From Antiquaquibacter oligotrophicus (GTDB lineage Bacteria; Actinomycetota; Actinomycetes; Actinomycetales; Microbacteriaceae), in NCBI RefSeq assembly GCF_020535405.1, contig NZ_CP085036.1:2831553-2895552 (forward strand): a DNA stretch of 64,000 nt, read 5' to 3'. The notes under the pieces were generated by a model that was given only the letters and a program-made list of their open reading frames with translations, searched no databases and was not told the DNA's origin. Of this stretch, positions 25,494 through 30,955 are shown one piece after another. Position 1 is the stretch's first letter. Each line of letters begins with the position of its first letter. Position numbers and translations under genes: made by a program.

Positions 25494-26864
25494 ATGGCAA
25501 CCCGAACGACGACTGCTTCCGCCGAAAAGAAGGCTCCGAGAACGCGCAAGGCCGCCAGTGCCGAGCCCGAGGCGACAGTCGAGAGTGATAAGGACGAGCC
25601 GAAGGCCGCTCCCGCCAAGAAGACGGCAGCAGCGAAGGCTCCGGCGAGCAAGAAGCCTGCAGCCAAGAAGCCTGCAGCCAAGTCGACGCGCGCTTCCAAG
25701 TCCGCGAAGGACGATCCTGAGATCGACGCCGAGGACGCCGAAGATATCGAGGACGAAGAAGAAGTTGTTGTGGCGGATGAGACGCCGGACGAGGGCGAGG
25801 CGGTAGTCGAGGGCGCTGAGACCGCGAGCGACGACGAGGACGAGGAGAAGTCGACGGGCAAGGACGAGGAGCTTCCGACCGGGGCGCTTGTTCTGTCGCT
25901 TGTTGATGACGAGGACGAGGTCCCGGTCTACTCCGCGGCCATCACCGGTGCAACGGCTGATCCCGTCAAGGACTACCTCAAGCAGATCGGTAAGGTCGCC
26001 CTCCTTAACGCCGCTGAAGAGGTTGAACTCGCGATGCGCATCGAGGCCGGCCTCTTCGCTGAGGACAAGCTCTCGACGATGTCGGCCAGTGAGCAGCGCT
26101 CCCAGTTGGGTCGCGAGCTGCAGTGGGTCGCCAAGGACGGTCAGCGCGCGAAGAGCCACCTGCTCGGTGCGAACCTCCGTCTCGTGGTGTCGCTCGCTAA
26201 GCGTTACACCGGACGCGGGATGCAGTTCCTGGACCTGATCCAGGAAGGAAACCTGGGACTCATCCGTGCGGTCGAGAAGTTCGACTACACCAAGGGCTTC
26301 AAGTTCTCGACCTACGCGACATGGTGGATCCGCCAGGCGATCACCCGCGCGATGGCCGACCAGGCTCGCACCATCCGTATCCCGGTGCACATGGTGGAGG
26401 TCATCAATAAGCTTGCGCGCGTCCAGCGCCAGATGCTGCAGGACCTGGGACGCGAGCCCACCCCAGAGGAACTCAGCCGCGAGTTGGACATGACGCCCGA
26501 AAAGGTCATCGAGGTCCAGAAGTACGGCCGCGAGCCCATTTCGTTGCACACGCCTCTTGGCGAGGACGGCGACAGTGAGTTCGGTGATCTCATCGAGGAC
26601 ACCGAGGCGGTCGTCCCCGCGGATGCTGTCGGCTTCACGATGCTGCAGAAGCAGCTGGAAAGTCTCCTCGATTCGCTGTCCGAGCGTGAGGCCGGAGTGA
26701 TCCGGATGCGCTTTGGTCTGGGCGACGGTATGCCGAAGACCCTGGACCAGATCGGCGACACGTTTGGCGTCACGCGCGAGCGTATCCGTCAGATCGAGTC
26801 CAAGACGATGGCGAAGCTCCGGCACCCCTCGCGGTCACAGTCGCTGCGCGACTACCTCGAGTAG
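25494..26864 (+). CDS. sigA: RNA polymerase principal sigma factor (RpoD/SigA)
   Basis: 456 residues. After a low-complexity N-terminus (residues 10-150: Lys/Ala/Pro-rich with [12 protein letters not shown], then strongly acidic) come region 1.2 ([16 protein letters not shown]), region 2 ([20 protein letters not shown] and [19 protein letters not shown], the -10 recognition helix), region 3 ([13 protein letters not shown]) and region 4 ([20 protein letters not shown], the -35 helix-turn-helix) ending SQSLRDYLE. All conserved group 1 features are intact. ATG 25494 follows GAAAGG; an earlier in-frame ATG at 25452 is less likely. Confidence 0.96.
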
Positions 26865-26874
26865 GAACACGATC

Positions 26875-28143
26875 CTGACGGCCGTCGCAATCCTCGCTGG
26901 CCGCCTCGCACGGTGGCTGCTGCGCCTGCGCGGCGGCGGTTCAGCGGTGCCCGGGCGCGTGCTGCTCGCGCTGTCGCCTCGTTTTCTCTCTCGCGCTGTC
27001 GAGCGGATGCCCCTCGGGGTGGTGTTCGTGTCGGGTTCCAACGGCAAGTCGACCACGACGCACATGCTCGTGAGCATTCTGCGAGCCCACGGGGTGTCGG
27101 TGTTCTCCAATCCCACCGGCGCCAATCTTCCGCAGGGCATCGCGTCAGCGATGCTGGCATCCGTCCCTCTTGACGGCAGGCTTCGCGAGGACGTTGCCGT
27201 GCTCGAGGTCGACGAGGCCTTCGGGCCGCGCCTCGCCCGCCAGCTCGCGCCCCACAGCGTTCTGCTCGTCAACCTGCAAGTGGATCAGCTCAATCGGTTC
27301 TACGAGCCCGCGCGAGTTGCCGGGATGCTCGAAGACTTCGCGCGCGCTGCGACTGGTCACCTCGTTGTGAACGGGGACGATCAGAACCTCGTGGCACTCG
27401 CTGACCGGATCTCGGGATCGGGAGCGGTGCGGACAGAATTCGCCGTGGAACCGTCCCTGCTCGCGGCAGGTCCTGCGTGGCTCGCGCGTGGGGACAACCC
27501 GGCTCTCGCCGTGGCCACTGCGCGCAAGAACGCCGCGGTCACCGTCGAGGCGCTTACAGGTCGTTCGGCCACTCTCAGCGCTGCGGGCGAGGAGTTCAGC
27601 GTCTCGCTTCCGGCGCGCGGCCTCCACTACGCGGTTGACGCTGCCGCAGCATCCGCGATGGCTCTCGCACTCCTGGGTGACTCGTTCGAATCGGACGCGG
27701 TTTCGGCAGGACTCGCGGCAATGGAGCCCGTGTACGGACGCGGCGAAGTGCTCCGCGTCGGTGACGAGGACGTCGAGCTCCTGACGATGAAAAACCCGCC
27801 GAGTCTTCAGGTCAACCTCGACTATCTCGAGCGCTTCCCGGAGCAGGTCATGGTTGCCGTGGACGAGGGGACACCCGATCCTTCATGGATCTACGGGTCC
27901 GACCTGTCCATGCTCGACCACGTCGATGTCGTGACGGGAACAAAGGCGTGGCAGCTGGCCACACGATTCGGGTATTCCGAGATTGCCGTTCATCACGTGA
28001 TACCCGACCTGGGTCCTGCGCTGGCTGCGTTCCTCGCGCTACCCCCACCGACGCGGGGCATGAAGACGATGATCCTCAACTACGAGCAGATGATGCTCGT
28101 GCGTAAACACCTGGGATACCTGGAGCTGGAGGGTTCGGCGTGA
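26875..28143 (+). CDS. murT: MurT-like Mur ligase (lipid II isoglutaminyl synthase subunit family)
   Basis: About 422 residues. Mur ligase core with P-loop VFVSGSNGKSTTTHML, VAVLEVDEAFGPRLA, LVNLQVDQLNRFYEP and the C-terminal DUF1727 part (PPSLQVNLDYLERFP, SWIYGSDLSML, MKTMILNYEQMMLVRKHLG). MurT normally activates the D-Glu alpha-carboxyl of lipid II with ATP so that ammonia from GatD makes D-isoglutamine. Oddities: no Cys anywhere, so the four-Cys zinc ribbon of characterised MurT is missing; the Asp of the SWxWD element is Gly. No ATG/GTG/TTG occurs in the right place: the best start is CTG 26875, eight bases after AGGA. It overlaps gatD by four bases. Confidence 0.85.
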   Translation: MTAVAILAGRLARWLLRLRGGGSAVPGRVLLALSPRFLSRAVERMPLGVVFVSGSNGKSTTTHMLVSILRAHGVSVFSNPTGANLPQGIASAMLASVPLDGRLREDVAVLEVDEAFGPRLARQLAPHSVLLVNLQVDQLNRFYEPARVAGMLEDFARAATGHLVVNGDDQNLVALADRISGSGAVRTEFAVEPSLLAAGPAWLARGDNPALAVATARKNAAVTVEALTGRSATLSAAGEEFSVSLPARGLHYAVDAAAASAMALALLGDSFESDAVSAGLAAMEPVYGRGEVLRVGDEDVELLTMKNPPSLQVNLDYLERFPEQVMVAVDEGTPDPSWIYGSDLSMLDHVDVVTGTKAWQLATRFGYSEIAVHHVIPDLGPALAAFLALPPPTRGMKTMILNYEQMMLVRKHLGYLELEGSA

Positions 28144-28799
28144 TCTCCATCCTTCACCTTTATCCTCGGGAGCTGGGCATCAACGGCGACGTCGGAAACG
28201 TTCTCGCGCTGACCAAACGTGCGCAATGGCGGGGTGTCGACGTGTCCGTGCACAACCACGACGTCGGAGATGAGCTTCCCGACGAGGTTCACGTGGTTCA
28301 CATCGGTAGTGGGCCAGCGTCGGGGGTGGACCTTGTCCGCTCTGATCTCGCGCGTATTGCCCCGCGCCTGCGTGAGTGGGCAGACGAGGGTGTGCCGTTC
28401 TTGGCCGTGGCGGCCGGTTGGCAGCTGCTTGGCCGCACCTTCACGGCGGAAAACGGCGAGCTTGTTGATGGCGCGGGAGTTCTTCCCACGGATGCCCGTG
28501 CGCGCGACAACCGCGTTGTGCGAGAAGTGTGGCGTGACGGAGTCGCCGGCTTCGAGAACCACGGTGTGAGCTTCACGACCGATGGGGTCGCCGCTGAGTG
28601 GCCGGTTGCGCGCTTCGGCTCCTCGCTGGCCACCACCTTGCACGGGCCATTCCTCCCCATGAACCCGGCCTTCGCGGACGACGTGCTCACGGTTGCCGCC
28701 GACCTGTCGGGCGATGTGCTCGGACAGCCAGAACCCGCTTTGGCAGAGGTGGACGAGCGTGCTCGGCTCTCGCGTGAGGCGGTCCGTTCGCGCGTCTAG
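28140..28799 (+). CDS. gatD: GatD-like class I glutamine amidotransferase homologue without catalytic Cys
   Basis: 219 residues; clearly GatD/CobQ2-type: ISILHLYPRELGINGDVGNVL at the N-terminus, GFENHGVSF, and LHGPFLPMNPAFADD carrying the catalytic His168. The nucleophile elbow, normally C-G-G-[YFW]-Q-L-L-G, reads AVAAGWQLLG: Ala91 replaces Cys and Ala92 replaces Gly (codons GCG GCC). The upstream GGGQD-type element is also changed (GSGPASG). Glutamine hydrolysis should therefore be impossible. The gene is intact and overlaps murT, so the complex is probably retained with a different amine source or a structural role for GatD. Confidence 0.85.
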   Translation: MISILHLYPRELGINGDVGNVLALTKRAQWRGVDVSVHNHDVGDELPDEVHVVHIGSGPASGVDLVRSDLARIAPRLREWADEGVPFLAVAAGWQLLGRTFTAENGELVDGAGVLPTDARARDNRVVREVWRDGVAGFENHGVSFTTDGVAAEWPVARFGSSLATTLHGPFLPMNPAFADDVLTVAADLSGDVLGQPEPALAEVDERARLSREAVRSRV

Positions 28800-28806
28800 T
28801 CGGGGC

Positions 28807-29850
28807 TCAGTCCCGATAGAACCGCGGCAGTCTTTCGCCTGCACGCGCGACGATCTCGTCTCCGATCGTCTCGCACCAGCGAGCCCATTCCTCAGCGGTC
28901 GCCTCGCCGTCGTCGCCCGGGCCGAACACGATGACGTCGTCGCCGGCCTCCGCGGCGGACTCGCCCAACTCGAAAGCGAGTCGATCGATGTCGACGGAGA
29001 CGACACGGTGGCGGCGCCCTCGCACGGTGACTTCCCCCCGACCGGCGGCGTTCGGCGGGACGCCATCGGCGGTGCCGAGAGCAATGATGCCTTCGCCACC
29101 TTCCGTCTTTGACAGCGGTGCGCGCATGGTCATGACTCCGCGCAGTCCGAGGTCGCGCCCGCTTTCGTCGTCGAAGGGCGAAATGCCGTAGGCAGCGATT
29201 CCGAAACGCACGAGGTCCAGTCGAGCTTCTGGTTCGCGAATACCCGCAGAGCTCGCAGCCAAGTGGAGCAGGGGTGGGGTGCATCCGAGATCACGTGCGG
29301 TCTCCACAGCCTCCAGTAGTTTTGTGAGCGCCTCGGCATCGTCTTCGGGCGACGCGTCTGCAAGATGCGACCAGATTCCTTCGATGCGAAGGTAACCGTC
29401 ACGCGCTGCGACCATGGCGGCCGACACGAGAGCGGGCCAGTCCTCGGGTCGAGCCCCGTTGCGGTGAAGCCCGGTGTCGATCTTCAGGTGCACACGAGCC
29501 GGCTTACCGTGCCACGCAGCCACGATGGCCTCGAGTTCCCACAGAGAGGAGATGCCGAGGTCGACGTCGGCTTCGATGGCACGTTCGAAGTCGGTCTCGG
29601 GGGAGTGGAGCCAGGCGAAGAGCTGGGCGTCGATACCGTCGCGTCGAAGCGCGAGCGCAGCCGGAACGTCGAGAACGGCGAGACTGTCGGCACCCGACTC
29701 GAGCGCGCGACGCGCCAGCGGTACCATCCCGTGGCCGTAGGCGTTCGCCTTGACAGCGAGCATGGTGCGCGAGGGCTTTGCGATCTCCGAAAGCACCCCC
29801 ACGTTGTGCGCGAAGGCGCCGAGATCGATGTCGAGGCGAGGGCTGGTCAT
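28807..29850 (-). CDS. alanine racemase-like protein, lysine-bearing barrel subunit
   Basis: 347 residues, fold-type III PLP enzyme. The barrel is complete: PLP lysine Lys34 in VKANAYGHG, HLKIDTGLHRNG (Lys123, Arg130), His162 in IWSHLAD and Arg215 in DLVRFGIAAYG. The C-terminal domain is shortened and degenerate: the GYADG motif that carries the second catalytic base (Tyr265 of Geobacillus Alr) is GTADG (Thr260), the YG element before it is missing, and the GRxCMD substrate element is not kept. Alone, a homodimer would lack the Tyr base. The ATG overlaps the stop of the next racemase-like gene by four bases, so both are made together. Probably one half of a heterodimeric racemase (inference). 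Confidence 0.85.
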   Translation of the reverse strand: MTSPRLDIDLGAFAHNVGVLSEIAKPSRTMLAVKANAYGHGMVPLARRALESGADSLAVLDVPAALALRRDGIDAQLFAWLHSPETDFERAIEADVDLGISSLWELEAIVAAWHGKPARVHLKIDTGLHRNGARPEDWPALVSAAMVAARDGYLRIEGIWSHLADASPEDDAEALTKLLEAVETARDLGCTPPLLHLAASSAGIREPEARLDLVRFGIAAYGISPFDDESGRDLGLRGVMTMRAPLSKTEGGEGIIALGTADGVPPNAAGRGEVTVRGRRHRVVSVDIDRLAFELGESAAEAGDDVIVFGPGDDGEATAEEWARWCETIGDEIVARAGERLPRFYRD

Positions 29851-30542
29851 GAGTGCACCCGAGTGATTCTCGATCCCAGACCTGCGGTGAGGTCGAGTGC
29901 CCGGCGTTCGGTCACGACACCCCAATCGGTCGCTGTCGGATGCCCGAATCCCGGGTCGCCCCACAGCGTGACGTCGTCACCGACCGACACGCGCGCGCTC
30001 CCGCAGTCCACAACAAACTGGTCCATGGCAATGCGGCCGACGATCGGCGCGAATCGTCCACCGATCGCAACCGTGGCGCGGTTGGATGCCAGACGCGGGA
30101 TACCGTCCGCATACCCGAGTCCGACGAGGGCGAGCGTTGTGGGCTCTTCGGTCCGATAGGTGTACCCGTAGGAGACTCCAGCTCCCTCCTCTGTGGGTTT
30201 AACAGCGATCACTTCGCCGACCAGTGTCATGACGGGTTTGGCTACGCCGTCGAACCCGTACGCGGCGTCGGCCGCGGTCGGTCGCACCGAGGGTACGGTC
30301 ATGAGCATCGACCGCCGGATGCCGCGGGGCGGCGTATCACGCAGGCCGATGCGAATCGTCCCGATGCCAGCATCCACTGCTGCCTGTGCGACGTGGGTCA
30401 GACCGTGTCCGTAGGCGTCGGCGCGAGCATCCAGAACCACGGAGGAGTCCTCTGCCACGAGCGCGGCGAGGTTCGCCCGTAACGCTTCGAGGTCGATGCG
30501 TGCAACGCGCCTGACCCCAGAGGCAACGGTGCCCTGGCTCAT
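29847..30542 (-). CDS. truncated alanine racemase-like protein, tyrosine-bearing subunit
   Basis: 231 residues, about 140 shorter than Alr. The first strands of the barrel are present but the PLP lysine is Arg40 (DARADAYGHG, codon CGC) and the central barrel strands are missing; at about residue 73 the sequence jumps to the region just before the C-terminal domain. That domain is well kept: VSYGYTYRTEEP, Tyr144 in LVGLGYADGIPR, FAPIVGRIAMDQFVVDCG (Met173, Asp174). It thus supplies exactly what its overlapping neighbour lacks. The frame is intact, arguing against decay. It follows DUF7455 by 23 bases in one operon. Confidence 0.82.
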   Translation of the reverse strand: MSQGTVASGVRRVARIDLEALRANLAALVAEDSSVVLDARADAYGHGLTHVAQAAVDAGIGTIRIGLRDTPPRGIRRSMLMTVPSVRPTAADAAYGFDGVAKPVMTLVGEVIAVKPTEEGAGVSYGYTYRTEEPTTLALVGLGYADGIPRLASNRATVAIGGRFAPIVGRIAMDQFVVDCGSARVSVGDDVTLWGDPGFGHPTATDWGVVTERRALDLTAGLGSRITRVHS

Positions 30543-30565: not shown

Positions 30566-30799
30566 TTACTCGGCGGAAGCGTTCTCGAGGAGCTTCGAGG
30601 ACTCGTCGTGCCATGACAGAGCGTTCGGGTACAGCTTCTCCTTGAACTTCGCCGCGTGGTGCGCACAGAAGAGAAGCTCGCCACTGGCGAGGGTCACCCG
30701 AACGTAGGCCTGGGCTCCGCAGCTGTCGCAGCGATCGAGCGCCGTGAGGTTGCGCTCCAGTTCGTCGGTGCCGATGTTCTCGCTGGTGATCTGAGACAT
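30566..30799 (-). CDS. DUF7455 family small zinc-ribbon-like protein
   Basis: 77 residues. Two Cys pairs, DRCDSCGAQAYVRV and LFCAHHAAKF (CxxC...CxxH), suggest one zinc-binding ribbon of the DUF7455 type; LERNLTALDRCDSCGAQAYV is the family hallmark. Function unknown; the family is common in actinobacteria, often near sigA or topoisomerase genes. ATG 30799 follows AAGGAG at about seven bases, a strong ribosome site. It is divergent from parE (156-base gap) and leads into the two racemase genes. Confidence 0.85.
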   Translation of the reverse strand: MSQITSENIGTDELERNLTALDRCDSCGAQAYVRVTLASGELLFCAHHAAKFKEKLYPNALSWHDESSKLLENASAE

Positions 30800-30955
30800 G
30801 ATCTGCTCCTTACGACTGAATGCCCGGGTGGCGTGTATCAATACAAGCACGCCCGTGTTACCGCATTGCGTCATGAGACGGGTATTTCGCTGAACGCGTA
30901 CGTCGTCCCCGCCGCTTAGGGTTGAGTGCCCGGCCTGTCAGATCGAGGAGAACGA

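Follow-up and report, generated by a model that had tools for sequence, protein, structure and literature searches.

Two adjacent genes of Antiquaquibacter oligotrophicus probably code for two dissimilar subunits of a single PLP-dependent racemase with the alanine racemase (Alr) fold, both the physical complex and the racemase activity being predicted from comparison of sequences. They lie on the minus strand of the window, a stretch of 64,000 nt (GCF_020535405.1, NZ_CP085036.1, positions 2,831,553-2,895,552 of the forward strand), with the gene of the smaller protein, the Tyr subunit, upstream and that of the larger one, the Lys subunit, downstream. The PLP lysine and the second catalytic base Tyr265 reside on separate polypeptides: Lys34 goes with Thr260 in one and Arg40 with Tyr144 in the other. 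On a wider scale, tandem racemase genes of Microbacteriaceae may have evolved, more than once and reciprocally, into obligate two-subunit racemases that have one composite site; one line, that of the window pair, would make the D-diamino acid of B-type peptidoglycan, and another would have replaced the only alanine racemase of its bearers. Taken as a whole, this scheme is put forward tentatively, with somewhat less than an even chance of being right.

Proposed division of the active site between two genes

Position numbers follow Geobacillus Alr unless a residue of the window is named. The features of the pair are the following:

28807..29850, minus strand: Lys subunit gene (P0002), 347 aa; every PLP-site residue of the barrel kept, VSYG segment missing from the C-domain
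28858..28860, minus strand: codon of Asp331, Lys subunit, at the position of gate residue Tyr354
29071..29073, minus strand: codon of Thr260, Lys subunit, at the Tyr265 position
29749..29751, minus strand: codon of Lys34, Lys subunit, the PLP lysine
29847..29850, minus strand: overlap of both genes, 4 bases
29847..30542, minus strand: Tyr subunit gene (P0001), 231 aa; putative donor of the C-terminal Alr domain, with Arg40 for the PLP lysine and without the barrel core
30021..30026, minus strand: codons of Met173-Asp174, Tyr subunit, positions M312-D313
30111..30113, minus strand: codon of Tyr144, Tyr subunit, equivalent to the second catalytic base Tyr265
30165..30176, minus strand: VSYG, Tyr subunit residues 123-126, in a segment absent from the Lys subunit
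30423..30425, minus strand: codon of Arg40, Tyr subunit, at the PLP lysine position

An earlier, sequence-only reading of this DNA had described two adjacent Alr-like genes with a 4-base overlap, and the coordinates (29847-29850) agree. Its residue numbers all check as well, its "protein 1" being the downstream gene, i.e., the Lys subunit, in which K34, K123, R130, H162, R215 and T260 correspond to Geobacillus K39, K129, R136, H166, R219 and Y265; the key residues of the Tyr subunit are R40, Y144, R170, M173 and D174. The worn C-terminal domain reported for the 347-aa protein appears in Pfam as an incomplete Ala_racemase_C match (profile positions 35-127, 9.6e-16) beside a complete Ala_racemase_N (1.3e-57), and the missing central barrel of the 231-aa protein as an Ala_racemase_N match reduced to positions 1-49 of 220 and below the cut-off, beside a complete Ala_racemase_C (1.7e-35). 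Two changes come in addition: Asp331 at the gate position Tyr354, and the deletion of the entire VSYG segment from the C-domain of the Lys subunit.

Alr, a drug target, is a textbook case of a homodimer. Each of its active sites is made of the barrel of one protomer and the C-domain of the other (PMC3485190 and PMC3245724, in the sections available). In the pair, the Lys subunit would supply the barrel (the PLP lysine, K129, R136, H166 and R219) together with the gate residue Asp331, and the Tyr subunit would supply the C-terminal domain that normally comes from a second copy, including the VSYG segment, Tyr144, R170, M173 and D174. The active sites of a 1:1 complex would then number exactly one that is complete, and each protein by itself would have none.

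Recurrence, fusions and probable origin of the split

Alr-type open reading frames aligned from 218 loci gave 60 distinct small proteins, exact repeats being merged by their last 150 residues. L054, the partner of which is cut at a contig end, was kept, and L065, a canonical gene cut at the locus edge, was left out; the remaining 59 Tyr subunits represent 20 genus codes among the genomes sampled, plus named loci. In the genus of the window itself, 5 of 27 genomes have a gene that matches the small protein along its length. The small protein also occurs in Leifsonia, Pseudoclavibacter, Pseudolysinimonas, Labedella and others, among the matches listed from the family and order samples and in a scan of named genomes (80 loci kept), and searches of named genomes located the pair in Microbacterium, Homoserinibacter and Protaetiibacter too. 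Outside the Microbacteriaceae, the order-sample matches listed are open frames of at least 353 aa. One locus, L070, is labelled Acidobacteria bacterium; its gene order and 52-96 % identity match the Microbacteriaceae locus, and it probably comes from a mislabelled bin.

A Lys-bearing partner adjoins the Tyr subunit in all 59 distinct cases, which rules out chance pairing. Single genes of either type, which according to the sequence-only reading would, if functional alone, speak against its proposal, do not occur on the Tyr side (0 lone Tyr subunits among the 59). On the Lys side, in a survey seeded from the small gene, seven of nine unpaired secondary matches were read and all are the His354 paralogue, this reading covering 24 named genomes as distinct from the 59-genome Microbacterium search.

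All 59 Lys subunits carry K39, K129, R136, H166 and R219. M312 is left in one of them (L170), R309 in five and the VSYG segment in none, a count that disregards matches of the VSYG pattern within the GYGDG/GYGHG loop of 13 Lys subunits and elsewhere in L245. Residue 354 is Asp in 36, Glu in 20, Tyr in 2 and cut off in 1 (n = 59). In the Tyr subunits, Lys is never found at position 39 (Arg in 52, Thr in 3, Ser, Ala, Asp and Met in one each) and the R136 and H166 positions are absent throughout; M312, SYG and the VSYG segment are present in 59 of 59, and R309 in 54. The split holds in every pair for the barrel versus the VSYG-M312 part of the C-domain, and Tyr265 follows in most. A chance or assembly artefact is ruled out for the window pair by the presence of the pattern in 59 distinct pairs together with the dN/dS values given below.

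Position 265 of the Tyr subunit is Tyr in 52 cases and Phe in 7; pair by pair (Tyr subunit/Lys subunit), Tyr/other is found 37 times, Tyr/Tyr 15 times, Phe/Tyr four times and Phe/Phe three times. The complementary losses proposed from the sequence, and the expectation that the same pair with the same swaps would turn up in other Microbacteriaceae, are thus borne out for the PLP lysine (59 of 59) and for the recurrence of the pair, while the Tyr265 swap is not universal, Tyr being confined to the Tyr subunit in only 37 of 59. A strict partition of Tyr265 was abandoned as a general rule, with the residue in both subunits, in the Lys subunit only and in neither in 15, 4 and 3 of the 59 pairs, respectively. 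These pairs argue against a two-subunit racemase of the kind proposed here, and the three Phe/Phe pairs (L047, L048, L049), in which the second catalytic base is unexplained, count against a strict role of the Tyr subunit as Tyr donor.

The Phe in seven Tyr subunits and the three pairs without any Tyr265 would also fit a Tyr subunit that is a regulatory or stabilising, prozyme-like partner and does not complete the active site of the Lys subunit; other PLP-type systems are known to have such pseudoenzyme activators. We consider this improbable, since the Tyr subunit keeps the second-protomer residues (M312 and SYG in all pairs, R309 in 54) that have been lost from the Lys subunit. The complex could also run some other PLP reaction, e.g., decarboxylation or transamination, in place of racemisation: the fold includes decarboxylases, the gate residue is changed and, again, three pairs have no Tyr265. 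This appears highly improbable with R219, at the PLP nitrogen, kept in 59 of 59 pairs along with R136 and H166. Ornithine decarboxylase has a Glu at the PLP nitrogen, in the R219 position (accessible part of PMC8142540).

A query in which the two proteins were joined (120 of 3967 matches listed) has two natural fusions, P0248 and P0243, among its matches; with the Lys subunit as sole query, no fusion was seen among the 120 of 2343 matches listed. In P0248 (652 aa, metagenome), the first module is of the Tyr type (Arg39, Tyr265, Met312, without the barrel core) and the second of the Lys type (Lys39, Phe265, Pro312, Asp354). In P0243 (732 aa, Parafrigoribacterium mesophilum), the first module is full-length but dead (Ser39, Ala129, Ala136, Ile166) and keeps Tyr265 and Met312, and the second has Lys39, Tyr265, Gln312 and Glu354. 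Both fusions support a physical 1:1 complex, the presence of Tyr265 in both modules of P0243 being a point against the proposed division of labour. A full-length dead partner exists as a separate gene in Humibacter albus (L223:3099-4415; Asp39, H166 missing) and likewise argues for a two-subunit racemase.

In 17 chosen comparisons, dN/dS was 0.10-0.43 for the Tyr subunit, where the rows of L166 and L172 include some frame upstream of the gene, and 0.09-0.28 for the Lys subunit. Such purifying selection is a further argument for the two-subunit racemase. Since catalytic parts are missing from each protein, one might see in them decaying duplicates without function; the dN/dS range of 0.09-0.43, the intact frames, the barrel residues in 59 of 59 and the fusions leave this next to no probability, and a pseudogene reading is ruled out by dN/dS and conservation.

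The ancestors of the split pairs were probably full-length racemase genes in tandem, from which complementary halves were lost on two or more occasions, with opposite outcomes. Tandem full-length pairs, a canonical Tyr354 gene with an Asp354 paralogue, are found in Herbiconiux, Subtercola and Planctomonas and at L055, L059, L060 and L063; two more occur at L179 (Asp354) and L178 (Glu354). The Herbiconiux-type Asp354 racemase is fused to TsaE (PF02367) in P0253 and P0254, at the would-be alr-tsaE junction. The Humibacter partner gene mentioned above resembles an intermediate toward the short Tyr subunit. The eroded Lys subunits of the Asp and Glu type form one group with full-length paralogues (SH-aLRT 96). 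Independent erosion of the Asp- and Glu-clade Lys subunits was suggested by the tree and set aside, a single clade not being rejected (AU p 0.223); as both clades have the sigA-murT-gatD/parE locus, one origin with an inversion is favoured.

A reciprocal split is found in genus code g78, where seven of eight genomes have, beside the Glu354 pair, a second pair of reversed order, with a Lys subunit carrying Tyr354 first and then a Tyr subunit with Thr39. In G165, this pair has the usual setting of alr, with TsaE and a TsaB-like gene behind it. No one-piece alanine racemase was found in these seven genomes: at E 1e-12 or better, each has only these two Lys subunits and one weaker Ala_racemase_N gene, which is YggS in the two where it was identified (G165 and G103), and these two have further weak Ala_racemase_N matches (E 2e-6 to 3e-5). 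The D-amino-acid transaminase model TIGR01121 reached its cut-off in none of the eight. In the eighth genome, G396 (260 contigs, 96 % complete), both genes of the tandem are full-length, with Tyr354 and Asp354. A tree of the C-domain, built on 134 columns and poorly resolved in its interior, groups the Thr39 subunits with full-length Asp354 paralogues (SH-aLRT 99), that of G396 being their neighbour (SH-aLRT 91), and the other Tyr subunits form a separate group (SH-aLRT 96), except the long-branched L170. From this placement, the decay of tandem copies seems to have gone both ways.

The Tyr354 pair of g78 is probably an alanine racemase, and these bacteria would then depend on a two-subunit enzyme for their D-Ala. 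A reciprocal split in seven of eight genomes in which no other Alr-type enzyme was found is independent support for a two-subunit racemase and, with the 59 of 59 pairing and the fusions, it favours the heterodimer envisaged in the sequence-only reading.

Genomic context and possible substrate

The pair has the following neighbours in the window:

26854..28799, plus strand: MurT-like and GatD-like genes converging on the pair; Mur_ligase_M and GATase_3 above cut-offs, start of the MurT-like gene not fixed
30566..30874, minus strand: DUF7455 gene directly upstream of the pair (Pfam PF24254, 1.8e-23)

The two plus-strand genes match the NCBIfam models of MurT and GatD with scores under the cut-off. 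Among 44 loci with an Asp354 or Glu354 pair (repeats of one genome included), 43 have a gyrB/parE-like neighbour, usually with DUF7455, and also murT-like, gatD-like and sigA genes where the flank reaches; the exception, L161, has none of these, and neither do the 14 loci at which full-length genes stand in tandem and a Tyr subunit is absent. In the window and in Leifsonia the pair runs toward gatD, and at Microbacterium-type loci (L162:2956-5451) it comes after the murT-like and gatD-like genes and shares their strand, an arrangement suggestive of a single operon. The DUF7455 gene adjoins the pair in most related loci, whichever way the pair is oriented.

The genome has two full-length Alr-like genes besides the pair, among them the normal alr that the sequence-only reading had proposed to look for. 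This canonical alr (L001) is followed by TsaE and a TsaD-family (TsaB-like) gene; the other (L003, C1:1258660-1259706) is a third paralogue with His at 129 and 354. The window pair is therefore not the sole candidate for an alanine racemase. Full-length paralogues of this third class, with His or Asn at 129, His354, Ser311 and mostly Phe43, are present in several Microbacteriaceae (L003, L224-L229, L232).

With a normal alr elsewhere and Asp at the gate, the label "alanine racemase" is probably wrong for the window pair, and the other amino acid that the sequence-only reading had left as an option is favoured. Specificity for alanine is gated by Tyr354, and lysine-preferring and broad racemases have Thr or Ala in its place, in the portions of the sources available. 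An acidic residue at 354 suggests a basic side chain. The substrate may be a basic diamino acid (ornithine, diaminobutyrate or lysine), the D-form of which would enter group-B peptidoglycan, with the acidic residue facing its side-chain amino group, a proposal that we regard as about evenly balanced.

It is unlikely, if worth weighing, that a heterodimer formed by the window pair has alanine (or serine) as its substrate and is a second alanine racemase. The Lys subunit exceeds the cut-off of the alanine racemase equivalog TIGR00492 (190.2 against 168 bits; Tyr subunit 127.9), and the g78 Tyr354 pair indicates that the architecture can serve alanine. To be set against this are the canonical alr beside tsaE in the same genome, the Asp at Tyr354, acidic in 56 of 59 pairs, and M. 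saccharophilum, which is without the pair yet must make D-Ala.

For the diamino acid proposal, the distribution of the pair can be compared with wall types, which are those of genera or type strains, at times other than the strain sequenced. In Microbacterium, D-Orn, L-Lys or Dab is found in the group-B wall (PMC10757982, in the part accessible). The pair is present in 8 of 10 named Microbacterium genomes, including M. algeriense, M. maritypicum and M. proteolyticum, and missing from M. saccharophilum and M. thalli. The type strains of M. algeriense and M. maritypicum have D-Orn (same part of PMC10757982), and M. proteolyticum belongs to a cluster given as D-Orn except for M. enclense. Lys walls were predicted for the two pair-less species before the wall data, though not blindly for M. 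saccharophilum; the prediction agrees for this species (Lys wall in the table of PMC10978784), and for M. thalli no wall type was found in the literature searched. By the table of PMC7033078, Compostimonas, without the pair, has L-Dab (B1), and Parafrigoribacterium, with the fused form, has Lys (B2-beta). Herbiconiux, with the full-length Asp354 paralogue, has D- and L-Dab (PMC10011130). The pair is absent from the genomes searched of Agromyces and Cryobacterium, and these genera, with their Dab walls, are counterexamples to a diamino acid substrate: Cryobacterium is listed as Dab, B2-gamma (table of PMC7033078) and Agromyces as B2-gamma, A. aureus being written D-Glu-L-Dab (PMC5217419). That the pair is needed by every Dab-type genus fails on these two. 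Among the papers listed from the literature searched, none names an enzyme for the D-Orn, D-Dab or D-Lys of group-B peptidoglycan, and the pairs are candidates for this function.

Relation to known racemases and PLP heterodimers

No two-subunit or split alanine racemase appears among the papers listed from the open-access literature searched, and the sequence-only reading had known of none either. The genes are known to databases, where the small protein is annotated as "alanine racemase" or "alanine racemase C-terminal domain-containing protein", and the split seems undescribed. If correct, the arrangement represents a natural form of Alr with its half-sites on different genes, in which clean complementary gene decay led to an obligate complex, in both directions, and it would permit the dissection of a single Alr site.

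Serine palmitoyltransferase LCB1/LCB2 and similar PLP heterodimers consist of a subunit with the PLP lysine and a paralogue that has lost it; unlike the pair, these enzymes are of the unrelated fold type I and are not truncated into complementary domains. The Streptoalloteichus diaminobutyrate racemase PddB resembles the pair in the diamino acid racemisation proposed here and in its actinobacterial origin, but is, by its description in the accessible part of PMC8225329, PLP-independent and DapF-like.

Within the Alr fold, VanT shares a changed specificity with the pair but is a single protein, and the two subunits stay far below the cut-off of its model (NF033131, serine racemase; 155.9 and 107.2 against 460 bits for Lys and Tyr subunit). 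They do so as well with the lysine/broad-specificity racemase model (NF009879; 67.3 and 48.2 against 434 bits). Lyr (4dza), Bar (4dyj) and BsrV (7agz) also have a replaced gate Tyr354 (Thr in Lyr, Ala in Bar), but the replacement is not acidic and they are single-gene homodimers. With Alr itself (TIGR00492; 1vfh, 1bd0; homodimer), the pair has in common the fold, the PLP-site residues of the barrel and the C-domain residues across the dimer interface. It differs from Alr in being encoded by two genes with complementary halves, in Asp or Glu for the gate Tyr354 (Asp331 in the window) and, probably, in having one active site per dimer where Alr has two. Fold and chemistry are known; as far as could be seen, the two-gene composite is a new variant.
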